Assembly: GCF_003627965.1 (NCBI RefSeq)
Contig: NZ_RBWE01000001.1
Span: 1,418,769 to 1,482,768 of the forward strand
DNA: 64,000 nt
Direction of reading: 5' to 3'
Origin: Desulfofundulus salinus
GTDB lineage: Bacteria > Bacillota > Desulfotomaculia > Desulfotomaculales > Desulfovirgulaceae
A program made the translations under genes and the position numbers. Shown piece by piece: positions 13,669 to 22,289 of the stretch. The notes beneath the pieces are model-generated. The model ran no database searches. It had not been told where the DNA came from and saw only the letters and a list, made by a program, of their open reading frames with translations. Position 1 is the stretch's first letter; each line of letters starts with the position of its first letter.

Positions 13669-14643
13669 ATGTCCGCAAACCAGACCCGCTACCGGGTTTA
13701 TTCGGAATTCCTGAAAGAAAAATTCGGGGGCAAAGTATACAAGCTGCCCATCAACCTCCCCGGAACCTGTCCCAACCGGGACGGCACTATCAGTACCGGC
13801 GGTTGCATTTTCTGCGACGAGGAGGGGGCGGGTTTTGAGTGCCTGCCCAGCAGTCTCTCGGTGGAGGAACAGCTGGCAGCCAACCGGGAGTTTTTTCGCA
13901 AACGCTACAAAGCGGATAAATTCATCGCCTACTTCCAGGCTTTTACCAACACTTACCTGCCCTTTGAGCGCTTCCGGGAATATGTCCTGGCCGCTGCCGG
14001 CGGTGAAGATATGGTGGGCATTTCTATTTCTACCCGCCCGGACTGCATCAACGACCGTTACCTGGATTTCCTGGCAGAAGTGGGCCGGGAAAAAAATCTG
14101 GTCATGGACATCGAACTGGGGCTGCAAACGGTCAATTACCATTCCCTGTTGCGGGTCAACCGCGGGCATACCCTGGCCGAGTTTATCGATGCGGTGCAGC
14201 GCATCAAAGAGCGGGAGCTGGAAATCTGCGTGCACCTGATCCTGAACCTGCCCTGGGACGATATGATTGACGTAATCGAAAACGCCAAGATTCTCTCCGC
14301 CCTGCAGGTGCAATATGTAAAGCTCCACTCCCTTTACGTTGTCCGGGATACCGTACTGGGGGAAATGTACCAGCGCGGGGAGTTTTCCATCATCCCTATG
14401 GAGGAATACGTGGACCGGGTGGTGACATTTCTGGAATACCTGCATCCGGATATCGTCATCCAGCGCCTGGTCGGCCGCGGCCCCTATGACCGGGTGCTTT
14501 TCTCCAACTGGGGAGTGAGCTGGTGGCAGGTAAAGCAAAGGATTGAAGCCAGGCTGGAGGAACTGAACACCTGCCAGGGCCGACTCTGCGACTATTTAAA
14601 CGGCCCGGCGTTGCGGAAGAGATTTTTAAGTAGACACCTATGA
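13669..14643 (+). CDS. TIGR01212-family radical SAM protein
   Basis: The 324-residue protein has a Cys motif near residue 30-48 (CPNRDG ... GGCIFC) that provides the three cluster cysteines, followed by typical TIM-barrel segments (FQAFTNTY, GISISTRPDC, ELGLQT, HLILNLPWD, KLHSLYVV). This is the YhcC/TIGR01212 family of radical SAM proteins, of uncertain function. The last four codons and stop are supplied by a repeat that begins at 14631, so the original C-terminus has probably been replaced or trimmed. Start ATG 13669 has a GGAGG-like site (CCAGGAGGGTC) upstream. Confidence 0.85.
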   Translation: MSANQTRYRVYSEFLKEKFGGKVYKLPINLPGTCPNRDGTISTGGCIFCDEEGAGFECLPSSLSVEEQLAANREFFRKRYKADKFIAYFQAFTNTYLPFERFREYVLAAAGGEDMVGISISTRPDCINDRYLDFLAEVGREKNLVMDIELGLQTVNYHSLLRVNRGHTLAEFIDAVQRIKERELEICVHLILNLPWDDMIDVIENAKILSALQVQYVKLHSLYVVRDTVLGEMYQRGEFSIIPMEEYVDRVVTFLEYLHPDIVIQRLVGRGPYDRVLFSNWGVSWWQVKQRIEARLEELNTCQGRLCDYLNGPALRKRFLSRHL

Positions 14644-14890
14644 CGCTTTCAGCGTCACTGCCGTTTTGCACGGAAGCGAGCGACATTGAGCCGAGCAGAT
14701 GCCAAACTTAGCGAGACCGAGGGCGGAGGCGGGGCCGAGGGCATGGATGCCCGAGGCCGGCCCCTGAGGCACGGATGCCGAATGGGCCGGGAACCCCGCC
14801 GGAGTCCGAGGTCGAGCGCTAGTTTGGCCTGCGAGGCGAACGGAGCGAGCGCGTGCAAACGGCAGGCAATTGCTATTTTCAGGGTAGATA
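14631..14890 (+). repeat. Palindromic intergenic repeat, family 1 (long copy)
   Basis: The copy starts TAGACACCTATGACGC inside the end of the radical-SAM gene and contains the hairpin TGACGCT-TTC-AGCGTCA (14641-14657). A large nested inverted repeat follows: GCCGTTTTGCACG (14660) pairs with CGTGCAAACGGC (14852), and GCCAAACT (14701) with AGTTTGGC (14821). It ends with GGCAATTGCTATTTTCAGG. The same two ends occur at 54.1 kb around a much shorter core. No coding sequence is apparent in it. Confidence 0.7.
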
Positions 14891-14978
14891 AGCCGATTTC
14901 GTCCGGTCCGGATCGTCTTCCGCGACGAGGGAAGGCCGGCACCCATGCGATAAAACCAGAGCCGGCCTGAAGCAAGCC

Positions 14979-15025
14979 GCGGTGCTGTCGGCGCGAAGCA
15001 TTGGAGTGAGCGAGGACAGCACCGC
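14979..15025 (+). repeat. Hairpin related to family 2 repeats
   Basis: An 11-bp perfect stem GCGGTGCTGTC / GACAGCACCGC encloses a loop with AGCATTGGAGTGAGCG. The loop sequence recurs at 11.74 and 57.54 kb with a different stem. It lies 32 bp before xseB. Confidence 0.6.
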
Positions 15026-15056
15026 ATCCAACCGGGTTCAAAAGCGAGGTATAGCC

Positions 15057-15319: not shown

Positions 15320-16210
15320 TTGGACTTTTTGACCGAACTTAAAGTTAGGGCAGCCCTGGTGGACCGGGCACTGGATGAGCTTTTACCGTCAGAAGATACT
15401 TATCCGCCTGTAATTCACCAGGCCATGCGGTACAGCCTTTTTGCCGGGGGGAAAAGGCTGCGGCCCGTCCTGGTCCTGGCAGCGGCCGAAACGGTAGGCG
15501 GCGACCCCGCACGGGTATTGCCGGCAGCCTGTGCCCTGGAATTGATCCATACCTATTCTTTGATCCATGACGATCTGCCTGCCATGGATAACGATGATTT
15601 CCGGCGGGGAAAGCCGACCTGTCACCGGGTTTATGGTGAAGCGGTCGCCATCCTGGCGGGGGACGCCCTGCTAACCCATGCCTTTGCTCTTCTGGCTAAA
15701 AATGCCCAAAACCAGCTGGCACCGGCGGAACGGGTGGTGCAGGTCATTGAGGAGGTAGCGGCAGCTGCTGGCACGCTGGGGCTCATTGGCGGGCAGGTGG
15801 TGGATACCCTGGCTGCGGACACCACAGTAGATGACGCTACCCTGGAGTATATCCACCGCCACAAAACCGGGGCGCTGTACCGGGTGGCCGTGCGGGCAGG
15901 GGCCATTTTAGCCGGCGCAAAGGAAAAGCAGCTGGAGGCCTTGACTATTTATGCCGAGAACCTGGGTCTGGCTTTTCAAATACAAGACGATATCCTGGAT
16001 GTAGAAGGTGACCCGGCCAGGCTGGGCAAACCCGTGGGCAGCGACGAAAGAAATAAAAAGGCTACCTATCCGGCTCTTTTCGGATTGGATGTGGCCAGGG
16101 CAAAGGCCAGGGAAGCGGTCGCGGCAGCCCTGGCCGCCCTGGAGCCTTTTGATGAGCGTGCCGATTTTTTGCGGGAACTGGTCCGGTTTGTAATTGCGCG
16201 GGATTTTTAG
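15320..16210 (+). CDS. ispA: Farnesyl/geranyl diphosphate synthase (polyprenyl synthetase)
   Basis: The 296-residue protein has both Asp-rich motifs: HDDLPAMDNDD (first, near residue 80) and QDDILD (second, near 220), plus the GGKRLRP and TYPALFG motifs. It condenses IPP with DMAPP/GPP to make farnesyl diphosphate for quinones and undecaprenyl phosphate. Translation starts at a TTG 8 nt after AAGGAG. dxs, the first isoprenoid-precursor gene, lies downstream past the OLE RNA locus. Confidence 0.93.
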   Translation: MDFLTELKVRAALVDRALDELLPSEDTYPPVIHQAMRYSLFAGGKRLRPVLVLAAAETVGGDPARVLPAACALELIHTYSLIHDDLPAMDNDDFRRGKPTCHRVYGEAVAILAGDALLTHAFALLAKNAQNQLAPAERVVQVIEEVAAAAGTLGLIGGQVVDTLAADTTVDDATLEYIHRHKTGALYRVAVRAGAILAGAKEKQLEALTIYAENLGLAFQIQDDILDVEGDPARLGKPVGSDERNKKATYPALFGLDVARAKAREAVAAALAALEPFDERADFLRELVRFVIARDF

Positions 16211-16312: not shown

Positions 16313-16342
16313 TTGCTTTTATTTCTGAGCTTATGTTATAAT
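16313..16342 (+). promoter_or_regulatory. Promoter of the OLE RNA
   Basis: TTGCTT, an 18-nt spacer and a perfect TATAAT. Transcription would start near 16349, about 15 nt before the 5' strand of the closing helix of the RNA. Confidence 0.7.
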
Positions 16343-16348
16343 ACACTT

Positions 16349-16965
16349 CCGGAACTAGAAAGTGGGATAAGTGACGCAGTATCCTAGTCAGGTATGCCTT
16401 TTTTGAAGACGGGCCTAAAAATCCGTCGCGGGCACATCGATGAAGTTCCTGGTGCTGGCTGCTGACGCCCAGTCGGGGGCTGGTACTGGGAGTTAAGGAG
16501 TGAGGGCGAGCCGCAAAGGCATGCGGGCGTGGACCCTGACTCCGCGGAGACCCAAGTGCGTGGGAAAGCGTAAAAGCCGTACTATGGCTTGGGGTGTGAA
16601 CCTGCACGTGGTGAAAGCTGCGTGCAGTGTAGCCTGCCTTGAGTGGTAGCGGTGGATGTCGTTGGTAGCCGGTACCTTTATCCCCAATGGGCCCAGGGGA
16701 AGGTAACCGGTGGACTGAAACCGTTACTGCAAAAGAGGCTAGAAAAAGGCCATCCTGTCGGGGAAAACTCCTAGGCTGTCCGGTAACACCGGGGCAGCGC
16801 GGGGATTGCAGTGTGGACTAAGTGGTAATCCAGCCCCGGAACCGGCAACGTCCCGGAGGCAGTCCGAAGGGGAAACCGCCGGCATGGCGACAGCCGGTGA
16901 CTGCTTGGGAAAACCTGCTGGACCTTAAGCCACAATATTTACCCGCGCTGCTGTCACTTACCTCC
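16349..16965 (+). ncRNA. OLE RNA (ornate, large, extremophilic)
   Basis: This ~600-nt stretch has no credible reading frame but is rich in local hairpins and GNRA-type/A-rich joints. Its ends pair: 16365-16379 with 16948-16962 gives a closing helix (TAAGTGAC with GTCACTTA, then GCAG with CTGC, small bulges). The length, the position between ispA and dxs, and the downstream four-helix membrane protein are the known hallmarks of OLE RNA and its protein partner OapA in extremophilic and anaerobic Firmicutes. OLE ribonucleoprotein sits at the membrane and is linked to alcohol, cold and Mg2+ stress in Bacillus halodurans. The call rests on architecture and synteny; no covariance model was run. Confidence 0.85.
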
Positions 16966-17009
16966 GTAAAACATACTCCCTTTTTCCTTCCCGTATGAGG
17001 TGACTGTAT

Positions 17010-17597
17010 TTGGGAAACAATAAATCTACAGTTTCAGGCCGGTACGTACTTGTGGTGGGTACGGCCTCTTTTTTACTGGCCATAATATTTTTTTGGTTTT
17101 CAGAATTGTTGGCCGGCAAGGTAAAAAGTCTTTTTTTATCTTTTCTTTTTTTAGTTATAATTATACTGATCGGTATCGTGGCCGATATCGTGGGTACGGC
17201 AGTGGCAGCTGCTGAAGAGTCCCCTTTCCATGCCAAAGCGGCCAAGCGGGTGCGCGGGGCAAGGGAAGGGGTATATCTGATCAGGAACGCCGACCGGGTG
17301 GCCAACATCTGTAATGATGTTATCGGGGATATTGCCGGAACAGTAAGTGGCGCTCTGGGAATTGCCCTGGTTTTGCAAATCTTACTTTACTGGAAGGGTA
17401 TCAACCAGGCTTTGTTGAATATGATGGTAACCGCTCTCATTGCCGCTTTTACCGTAGGCGGCAAGGCGGCCGGGAAGCGCATAGCCATTTCCCGGGCCAA
17501 CGAGGTAATTTTTCTGGTGGGAAAATTACTGGCTGCCTTTGAACAGTTGACGGGGATAAGTGTGACCAGGAAAAAATACCGTCGGGCAGGCAAATAA
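17010..17597 (+). CDS. oapA: OLE-associated membrane protein A (OapA)
   Basis: The 195-residue protein has four hydrophobic helices (about residues 11-33, 39-66, 104-126 and 131-150), with a basic loop (AKAAKRVRGAREG, residues 75-87) between the second and third. A D103-x3-D107 motif starts the third helix, matching the conserved D-x3-D motif reported for OapA, which binds OLE RNA at the membrane. The basic loops could contact RNA. Translation starts at TTG 17010 behind GAGGTG. It lies directly after the OLE RNA and 27 bp before dxs, the arrangement described for this ribonucleoprotein. Confidence 0.88.
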   Translation: MGNNKSTVSGRYVLVVGTASFLLAIIFFWFSELLAGKVKSLFLSFLFLVIIILIGIVADIVGTAVAAAEESPFHAKAAKRVRGAREGVYLIRNADRVANICNDVIGDIAGTVSGALGIALVLQILLYWKGINQALLNMMVTALIAAFTVGGKAAGKRIAISRANEVIFLVGKLLAAFEQLTGISVTRKKYRRAGK

Positions 17598-17624
17598 CAC
17601 CAGGTGCGTCGGGAAGGGGAAAAA

Positions 17625-19544
17625 ATGGGAGACTTGCTTTCGACAATTAACTCTCCGGCGGATCTACGCTCTCTGGATATGGCCGGTTTACAGCAGCTTG
17701 CTTCCGAAATCCGGCAGGAGATTATCGAAACAGTGGCCAAAAACGGCGGCCACCTGGCCCCCAATCTGGGGGTGGTGGAACTTACCCTGGCATTACACCG
17801 GGTTTTTCAAACCCCCCGGGATAAAATTGTCTGGGATGTAGGCCACCAGTCCTATGTGCACAAGCTGGTTACCGGCCGCCGTCCGGTTTTTCATACACTG
17901 CGCCAGTTTGGGGGCATCAGCGGTTTTCCCAGACCCCAGGAGAGCGAACATGATGCCTTTGGCACCGGGCATAGCAGCACCTCCATTTCCGCAGCTTTAG
18001 GTTTGGCCCTGGCCCGGGACCTGAAGGGCGACAATTACTCCGTGGTAGCGGTGATTGGGGACGGGGCGTTGACTGGGGGTATGGCCTTTGAGGCCTTAAA
18101 CCATGCCGGCCACCATAAGACCAATTTAATCGTTGTCTTAAATGACAACGAGATGTCCATTGCCCCCAATGTAGGAGGGCTTGCTAAATACTTGAGCCGC
18201 CTCCGCACCGATCCCATGTATTCCAAAGGCAAGGAAGAGCTGGAACAGCTTTTAAAGCGCATTCCAGCCATTGGTCCCCGCGTGGTTAAAGCGGTGGAGC
18301 GGGTAAAGGACTCCCTGAAATATCTGGTAGTACCCGGCATGTTTTTCGAGGAACTCGGCTTCATCTACCTGGGGCCGATTGACGGGCACAATATCCAGGC
18401 CATGATCAATGTCTTCCAGCAGGCCAAAACCACCAGAGGACCCGTACTGGTACACGTGCTCACCCGCAAGGGGCGGGGTTACCCGCCGGCGGAGGAGAAT
18501 GCCGATAAATTTCACGGGGTTGGTCCGTTTGAAGTTAAAACGGGCCAGGTAATTAAAAAGCCGGGGCAGCCTCCCTCTTATACCGAGGTATTTGGGCGCA
18601 CCCTGGTGGAACTGGGACGCCGGGACAAGCGCATTGTAGCCATTACCGCAGCCATGCCTTCCGGTACCGGTTTGGATCATTTTGCCGCTGCCTTTCCCGA
18701 ACGGTTCTATGATGTTGGTATTGCCGAACAACACGCCGTTACCCTGGGCGCGGGCCTGGCGGCTGGCGGATTAAGGCCCGTAGTGGCTATTTATTCTACC
18801 TTTTTGCAAAGGGCCTACGACCAGGTGCTCCACGATGTCTGCCTGCAAAACCTGCCCGTAACCTTTGCCCTTGACCGGGCAGGTCTGGTCGGAGAAGACG
18901 GAGCTACCCATCACGGCGTGTTTGATTTTGCTTATCTGAGATCCATTCCCAACCTGGTGCTTATGGCTCCCGGGGACGAAAATGAGCTGCGCCAGATGTT
19001 AAAAACGGCGCTGGATTACCCGGGACCGGCGGTTTTGCGCTATCCCCGGAGTGCCGGTACGGGGTGCCCGCTGGATGAAAAAATTATCTCCCTGCCGGTG
19101 GGGAAGGCCCGGGTGCTCCGGGAAGGAGACGACATCACCCTGTTAGCCGTGGGCACCATGGTTTCCCTGGTCGAGGAGGCGGCTTCCCTTTTGGAACAGC
19201 AGGGCATCCATGCCACGGTGATCAACGCCCGGTTCGTCAAGCCACTGGATGAGGAATGTATTACCCGCTATGCCCTGCGCACCCGGCGGGTGGTTACCAT
19301 CGAGGAGCACGTCCTGCAGGGAGGATTCGGCAGCGCCGTCCTGGAACTGCTTGGGGACAGAGGGTTGCGCAACGTCCAGGTCATTCGCCTGGGAATTCCC
19401 GATGAGTTTATCGAGCACGGCAGCCGGGCCGTTTTGCTGGCCCGTTGCGGCCTGACCGTGGAAGGGTTGGTCAATACCGTATTACAGGCCCTGGGGGCGC
19501 GCAGGGCAAGAACAAAGGTAAAAATTGGAGTGCAATGGCCATGA
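17625..19544 (+). CDS. dxs: 1-deoxy-D-xylulose-5-phosphate synthase
   Basis: The 639-residue transketolase-like protein has the thiamine-diphosphate motif [18 protein letters not shown] ... NDNEMSI near residue 150, the N-terminal catalytic His in [12 protein letters not shown], and the [15 protein letters not shown] segment. It condenses pyruvate with glyceraldehyde 3-phosphate, the first step of the MEP isoprenoid pathway. Start ATG 17625 follows GGAAGGGG; a GTG at 17604 is a longer alternative. The gene overlaps tlyA at its end and supplies precursors for IspA upstream. Confidence 0.95.
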
Positions 19545-21269: not shown

Positions 21270-21837
21270 AAGTGCCAGTGCTGTCCAGTGGGCGCAAAGC
21301 TTTATTGCTCCGGTGCTGGTGCCCGGCTGCCTGGCGGTGGACGCCACCGCAGGTAACGGTCAGGACACGTTGTTCCTGGCCCGGGGTGTGGGGCCGCAGG
21401 GGAAGGTTTTTGCCTTTGACATTCAGCTCCAGGCCCTGGAAAAAACCAGGGAACAGCTGGCCGGGGCCGGTTTGCTGGACCGGGTGATCCTGCTGGCCGC
21501 GGACCACCGGGAAATGGCCGCCCATGTTCCCGGTGCCGTGAAGGCAGTTATGTTTAACCTGGGCTATCTGCCCGGCGGGGACCACCGGATCATCACCCGG
21601 CCCGAATCCACCCTGGAAGCGCTCAAAGCGGCCCTGTCCCTTTTAGCTTCCGGAGGGCGTATTTCCCTGGTGGTTTATACGGGGCATCCGGGCGCCACAG
21701 AGGAACTAAAGGTTGTGGAGGAGTTCACCCGGGATCTTTCTTCCCGGCAATATACGGTGGTAAGGCTATCCTTCTGGAATCGTTCTTCAAAGGCGCCGGT
21801 AGTAGTCCTTTTGGAAAAGGCGGGTGCAGAAACGTGA
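21259..21837 (+). CDS. mnmM: tRNA (mnm(5)s(2)U34)-methyltransferase-like protein (MnmM/YtqB family)
   Basis: The 192-residue Rossmann methyltransferase has the SAM motif [18 protein letters not shown] near residue 28 and the family motif [12 protein letters not shown] near 98, typical of the YtqB family, shown in Bacillus to be MnmM, which methylates nm5s2U34 in tRNA. It overlaps nadK upstream and argR downstream (GTGA). Older annotations call it putative rRNA methylase. The assignment rests on motif recognition. Confidence 0.82.
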
Positions 21838-22289
21838 AGGCCCGGCGGCAAAGGCAAATCCTTGAGATTATCCGCCAGCAGGTTATCGAAACCCAGGAAG
21901 AACTGGCGGAGGCCCTGCGGGCCGCCGGGTTTCCCGTTACCCAGGCCACCGTGTCCCGGGATATCCGGGAGCTGGGATTGGTCAAGGTGCCCGGAGAGAA
22001 CAATACCTTTCGCTATGCTGCTCCCGGTGAAACGCCTCCTTTAAGACGGTATGAACGGTTGAAGAGACTTCTGCGCAGCTCGGTACAGTTCATCGATTTT
22101 AGTGAAAACCTGGTGGTGGTTAAAACACTGCCGGGCGAAGCTCAGGGTGTAGCTTCGGCCATTGACCAGGCGGCCTGGCCGGAAATTATCGGTACCGTGG
22201 CCGGGGACGATACCATTTTGATTGTAGTTAAACCGAAAAAACTGGTAACTACAGTTTTGCAACGCTTAAATCAGCTGGCCAGGGGGTGA
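21834..22289 (+). CDS. argR: Arginine repressor ArgR
   Basis: The 151-residue protein has the N-terminal winged helix ([20 protein letters not shown] ... [17 protein letters not shown]) and the C-terminal arginine-binding/hexamerisation domain with the [13 protein letters not shown] stretch. It represses arginine synthesis and activates catabolism when arginine-bound. Translation starts at GTG 21834, overlapping the mnmM stop. The argR-recN pairing is conserved in Firmicutes. Confidence 0.95.

Follow-up and report, generated by a model that had tools for sequence, protein, structure and literature searches.

Introduction

Few conserved bacterial RNAs are as large as OLE RNA, whose biochemical function is still unexplained. 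The arrangement of the OLE RNA gene and oapA between ispA and dxs is already known, and the copy in Desulfofundulus salinus analysed here is an ordinary one. Published data point to a membrane-bound, dimeric ribonucleoprotein containing OLE, for which stress phenotypes are known (PMC12265935, PMC12286853). In Halalkalibacterium halodurans ole has its own promoter within a larger operon, and P13 is the OapB-binding loop of OLE (PMC9723947). In the cryo-EM models of PMC12265935, the A-rich P4 loop forms one dimer contact and P9 is the kissing loop of the dimer. The CNNM-like fold of OapA and a link between OapA and MpfA have also been published (PMC11332333).

We analysed a 64,000-nt stretch of the D. 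salinus genome (hereafter the window). Its OLE gene shares with those of H. halodurans, Clostridium acetobutylicum and C. botulinum the full-length match to the covariance model, the neighbouring oapA gene, a promoter of its own (predicted in the window copy), the A-rich loop and the GGGCCC loop; the differences are ordinary sequence differences only. We are highly confident that the window holds a canonical OLE RNA gene accompanied by oapA. It is a clean and complete member from the Desulfofundulus group, whose genome encodes candidates for all known partner genes. In some relatives the OLE gene lies away from oapA, so that the RNA and its partner need not be made together.

Results

The OLE RNA gene occupies positions 16355-16973 on the + strand and matches the Rfam covariance model RF01071 over its full length (model positions 1-616 of 616) with 514.5 bits (E 3e-149) against a gathering threshold of 50. 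It is the sole Rfam match across the whole window and the single OLE copy in the genome. The original prediction of an OLE RNA of ~600 nt, for which a high covariance-model score had been proposed as the check, is borne out by this score. OLE is present in 101 out of 113 genomes of the class (the Desulfotomaculum/Pelotomaculum class), and 96 distinct OLE RNAs drawn from the genomes that carry it were aligned (alignment A1).

A closing helix joins the two ends of the RNA: positions 16364-16375 pair with 16953-16964 (both on the + strand), with the best support at 16366-16375. Among the 96 OLE RNAs, 11 of the 12 pairs show changes on both sides, and the covariation of 0.406 compares with 0.197 in shuffled alignments and with at most 0.125 when the partner strand is slid. 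Conservation across the 96 sequences fails at the outermost pair and frequently at its neighbour, so we take 16366-16375/16953-16962 as the firm helix, within which the window copy has an A-C mismatch at 16367/16961. The helix had been proposed at 16365-16379 with 16948-16962; the covarying part of that pairing stands, and its inner GCAG/CUGC extension does not, scoring no better than shuffles. These inner pairs behave as chance pairing because the CUGC strand belongs to a neighbouring 11-bp Rfam helix (16793-16803 with 16942-16952, + strand), in which CUGC pairs with 16795-16798; this helix is paired in 93-100% of the aligned OLE sequences. The structure line of RF01071 leaves the closing-helix positions unpaired, whereas the covariation found here supports pairing. 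The helix is presumably the one named P1 in published OLE models (PMC12265935).

Three loops on the + strand recall those of the described RNAs. The hairpin at 16408-16427, present in the Rfam model, carries the CUAAAAA sequence of the A-rich P4 loop, which is conserved in alignment A1. The palindromic loop GGGCCC at 16689-16694 is found in 84 of 87 operon-linked OLEs and, by analogy with the published dimer, would be the P9 kissing loop. Near the 3' end, the GGCGAC loop at 16886-16891 likely corresponds to the OapB-binding P13 loop, as judged from its GGYGAC conservation: the motif lies within the last 130 nt of 85 out of 87 operon-linked OLEs and of none of the nine relocated OLEs described below.

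Upstream of the RNA we read from the sequence an extended -10 element, TGTTATAAT (TGT-TATAAT, 16334-16342, + strand), with a predicted transcription start near 16349. A weak -35-like hexamer, TTGCTT (16313-16318, + strand), precedes the -10 by 18 nt and is kept in the genus. A generic sigma-70 scan of the OLE upstream stretch reported no promoter, as the -35 hexamer is weak. The extended -10 element is conserved upstream of OLE genes: TGnTATAAT precedes 75 of the 96 (0.6 expected from shuffles), and a looser form precedes 86 of the 96 (2.6 in shuffles). These counts support the TATAAT promoter that had been assigned to OLE, and such an element was to be expected here given the published ole promoter of H. 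halodurans. The data support a conserved, predicted extended -10 promoter belonging to OLE itself inside the ispA-dxs operon.

The flanking genes lie on the same strand. The farnesyl diphosphate synthase gene ispA (15320-16210) matches PF00348 (E 2.7e-64) and NF045485 (393 bits, cut-off 275), and the 1-deoxy-D-xylulose-5-phosphate synthase gene dxs (17604-19544, with a possible alternative ATG at 17625) matches TIGR00204 with 885 bits. Between OLE and dxs, oapA (17010-17597, 195 codons, TTG start codon at 17010) follows a ribosome-binding site, GAGGTGA, recognised at 16997-17003. The known arrangement of OLE and OapA between ispA and dxs, as originally predicted, is thus upheld by the RF01071 score and the flanking genes. 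Among the class genomes, OapA is encoded directly downstream of OLE in 89 of 98 loci, nearly all of which keep the order ispA-OLE-oapA-dxs. An ArgR-like gene, recognised by eye, is located ~4 kb downstream of OapA at 21834-22289; PMC12265935, citing unpublished data, mentions ArgR as a possible partner of OLE.

OapA of the window is 97% identical to that of Desulfofundulus thermosubterraneus, the nearest named organism. It gave no match in Pfam or NCBIfam (E up to 0.001) or among PDB sequences (E up to 1) and scores below the cut-off of the Pfam CNNM profile (PF01595); several relatives give weak, sub-cut-off CNNM-profile matches at the OapA position. Since sequence searches were empty, the protein was assigned by position, alignment and fold. 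Its D103-x3-D107 motif (codons 17316-17318 and 17328-17330) is invariant among 42 homologues (alignment A2). The AlphaFold model (pLDDT 76) shows four long helices and a further helix at the C terminus, and superimposes on MtCorB with Z 13.8 and an rmsd of 2.1 over 126 residues, compared with Z 8.3 for the best unrelated structure; a bacterial CorC membrane domain (7cff) gives Z 12.2. OapA therefore appears to share the four-helix membrane core of the CNNM/CorC Mg2+ transporters (MpfA, CorB; Z 12-14 for MtCorB and 7cff/7cfg). It differs from that family in its lack of CBS and CorC domains, its score below the Pfam CNNM cut-off and its invariant D-x3-D. The model supports a CNNM-like membrane protein, in line with the OapA-MpfA link of PMC11332333, and the 195-residue, four-helix OapA with D103-x3-D107 that had been proposed from the reading frame agrees with the motif, the position and the modelled fold, to which the C-terminal helix is an addition.

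The other known partners have candidate genes in the same genome. A gene between map and infA matches PDB 7k9b, annotated as OLE-associated protein B (E 4e-10), and is a candidate for OapB; a gene between rpoC and rpsL matches YbxF (2.5e-13) and is a candidate for OapC; bS21 is encoded as well. No CNNM/MpfA protein over the cut-off was found in this genome. Among the OLE-negative genomes of the 113, eight are also without OapA and the other four keep it. In three of these four, OapA is within ~230 nt of a contig start, so the missing OLE in these three may be an assembly gap. The eight genomes suggest that OLE and OapA are lost together. Just one of the eight has a CNNM protein over the cut-off, which is reached in 36 of the 113 genomes, and no anticorrelation between MpfA and OLE was seen within the class. 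Five genomes that are >90% complete (G074-G077 of group g38, and G048) are without OLE, OapA and CNNM/MpfA, and the published replacement by MpfA is therefore not seen in them. In Gracilibacter sp. BRH_c7a, OapA (L218:2409-2980) is present and OLE is not detectable anywhere in the assembly; the space between ispA and oapA holds a gene for a 152-residue membrane protein. OLE may be missing through a gap in the assembly, or OapA may occur here without it.

Nine short OLE genes of 559-596 nt (L104-L112, from genomes G069, G030, G032, G033, G027, G028, G026, G031 and G029) are not accompanied by OapA, ispA or dxs. Their Rfam-model scores are 399-447 bits, and they form one clade with 100% support. 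In a rooted tree this clade is placed inside the class with moderate support and on a long stem. We considered a short-OLE clade without any OapA and rejected it when a whole-genome search found OapA in most of these genomes, in the ispA-dxs operon. In six of them OapA is encoded between ispA and dxs and begins 33-290 nt downstream of ispA, OLE being absent from the locus; in five, a cross-check against the named records showed that the OapA locus has no OLE and that a single OLE lies elsewhere. G029 and G031 gave no convincing OapA, which may reflect their assemblies: neither yielded a full-length dxs, and in G031 the best match to dxs is at a contig edge. Peptococcaceae bacterium BRH_c4b (G030) carries OLE twice, at full length in the operon (L068) and as a short free-standing gene (L105).

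The relocated genes appear to have their own start and stop signals. Promoters of the form TTTACA-17/18-TA[T/A/G]AAT precede OLE in 8 of 8 loci of family f5. Immediately beyond the closing helix, 8 of the 9 relocated OLEs have an intrinsic terminator, versus 2 of the 87 operon-linked ones. The GGGCCC loop is missing from the relocated RNAs (the sequence occurs twice among them, near the 3' end only), and GGCAAC replaces GGYGAC near the 3' end in 8 of 9. All nine genomes retain an OapB gene. From the published contacts, we infer that these losses would cost the dimer one of its contacts and reduce the binding of OapB.

Like OLE variants 1 and 2 (Fernando and Breaker 2024, PMC11332333), the relocated OLEs are shortened and have a changed loop where OapB likely binds; our Rfam bit scores are not comparable with those from the model of that paper. 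The relocated OLEs differ from the two variants, as described there, in belonging to class relatives of the window and in lying outside the oapA operon. In the open OLE literature we found no description of relocated OLE genes in the main texts, and figures or supplements may list them.

Discussion

It is likely that the unlinked OLE and OapA still work together, because both are retained. We consider it probable that OLE in one clade of the class (family f5, including Peptococcaceae bacterium BRH_c4b, and one f10 genome) is a free-standing, reduced gene working in trans, perhaps with two OLE particles in one cell where both copies are kept. The relocated copies offer a direct test of trans action, of which parts are dispensable and of where the RNA ends.

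For Desulfofundulus we infer a particle mechanism carried over from other species. By analogy with H. halodurans and clostridial OLE, the RNA would dimerise; as in published OLE work, OapA would be bound at the membrane, with OapB, OapC and bS21 bound elsewhere. The particle would help the cell to withstand stresses such as cold, alcohol and Mg2+, probably by working alongside a Mg2+ transporter or by substituting for one.

The gene order leaves room for a second role in cis beside the trans role, for example in setting the OapA:OLE ratio through read-through from the OLE promoter into oapA, which we regard as possible but rather doubtful. Most loci by far keep the same gene order and spacing, there is usually no terminator after OLE, and H. 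halodurans OLE is part of an operon yet has its own promoter (PMC9723947), all of which would fit such a role; the relocated genes, however, indicate that linkage is dispensable in at least one lineage, and the conserved order may equally reflect simple co-expression.

It is very unlikely that OLE serves mainly as a leader, controlling oapA and dxs in cis in the manner of a very large riboswitch. OLE does precede oapA by 37 nt on the same strand, with no convincing terminator between the two in the window, and a terminator-like site follows the closing helix in only 2 of the 87 operon-linked OLEs. Yet the short OLE of relatives sits elsewhere with its own predicted promoter and terminator, and oapA remains in place between ispA and dxs after OLE has gone, 33-290 nt from ispA. 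Where OLE is unlinked from oapA and has its own start and stop, a leader role is therefore not its essential function. The RNA is moreover conserved over its whole length with its ends joined by a helix, and in other species OLE binds proteins as a separate RNA (PMC12265935). The comparison with relatives favours a trans-acting OLE over a leader of oapA.

The interval had been predicted to be noncoding, and no reading frame in it is conserved among the 96 relatives: in-frame stops break the candidate frames in 59-86 of them and net frameshifts occur in 62-73. That the interval is a protein gene missed by annotation, or a decaying relic, can be practically dismissed, for it does hold short frames on both strands but the candidate frames are broken in most relatives and the structure and sequence of OLE are kept across the class.

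As a separate observation upstream of the operon genes discussed here, an interspersed repeat is found at 14640-15040, upstream of xseB. The genome matches it 42 times, over two separate parts of ~220 bases (80-97% identity) and ~85 bases (83-96%).
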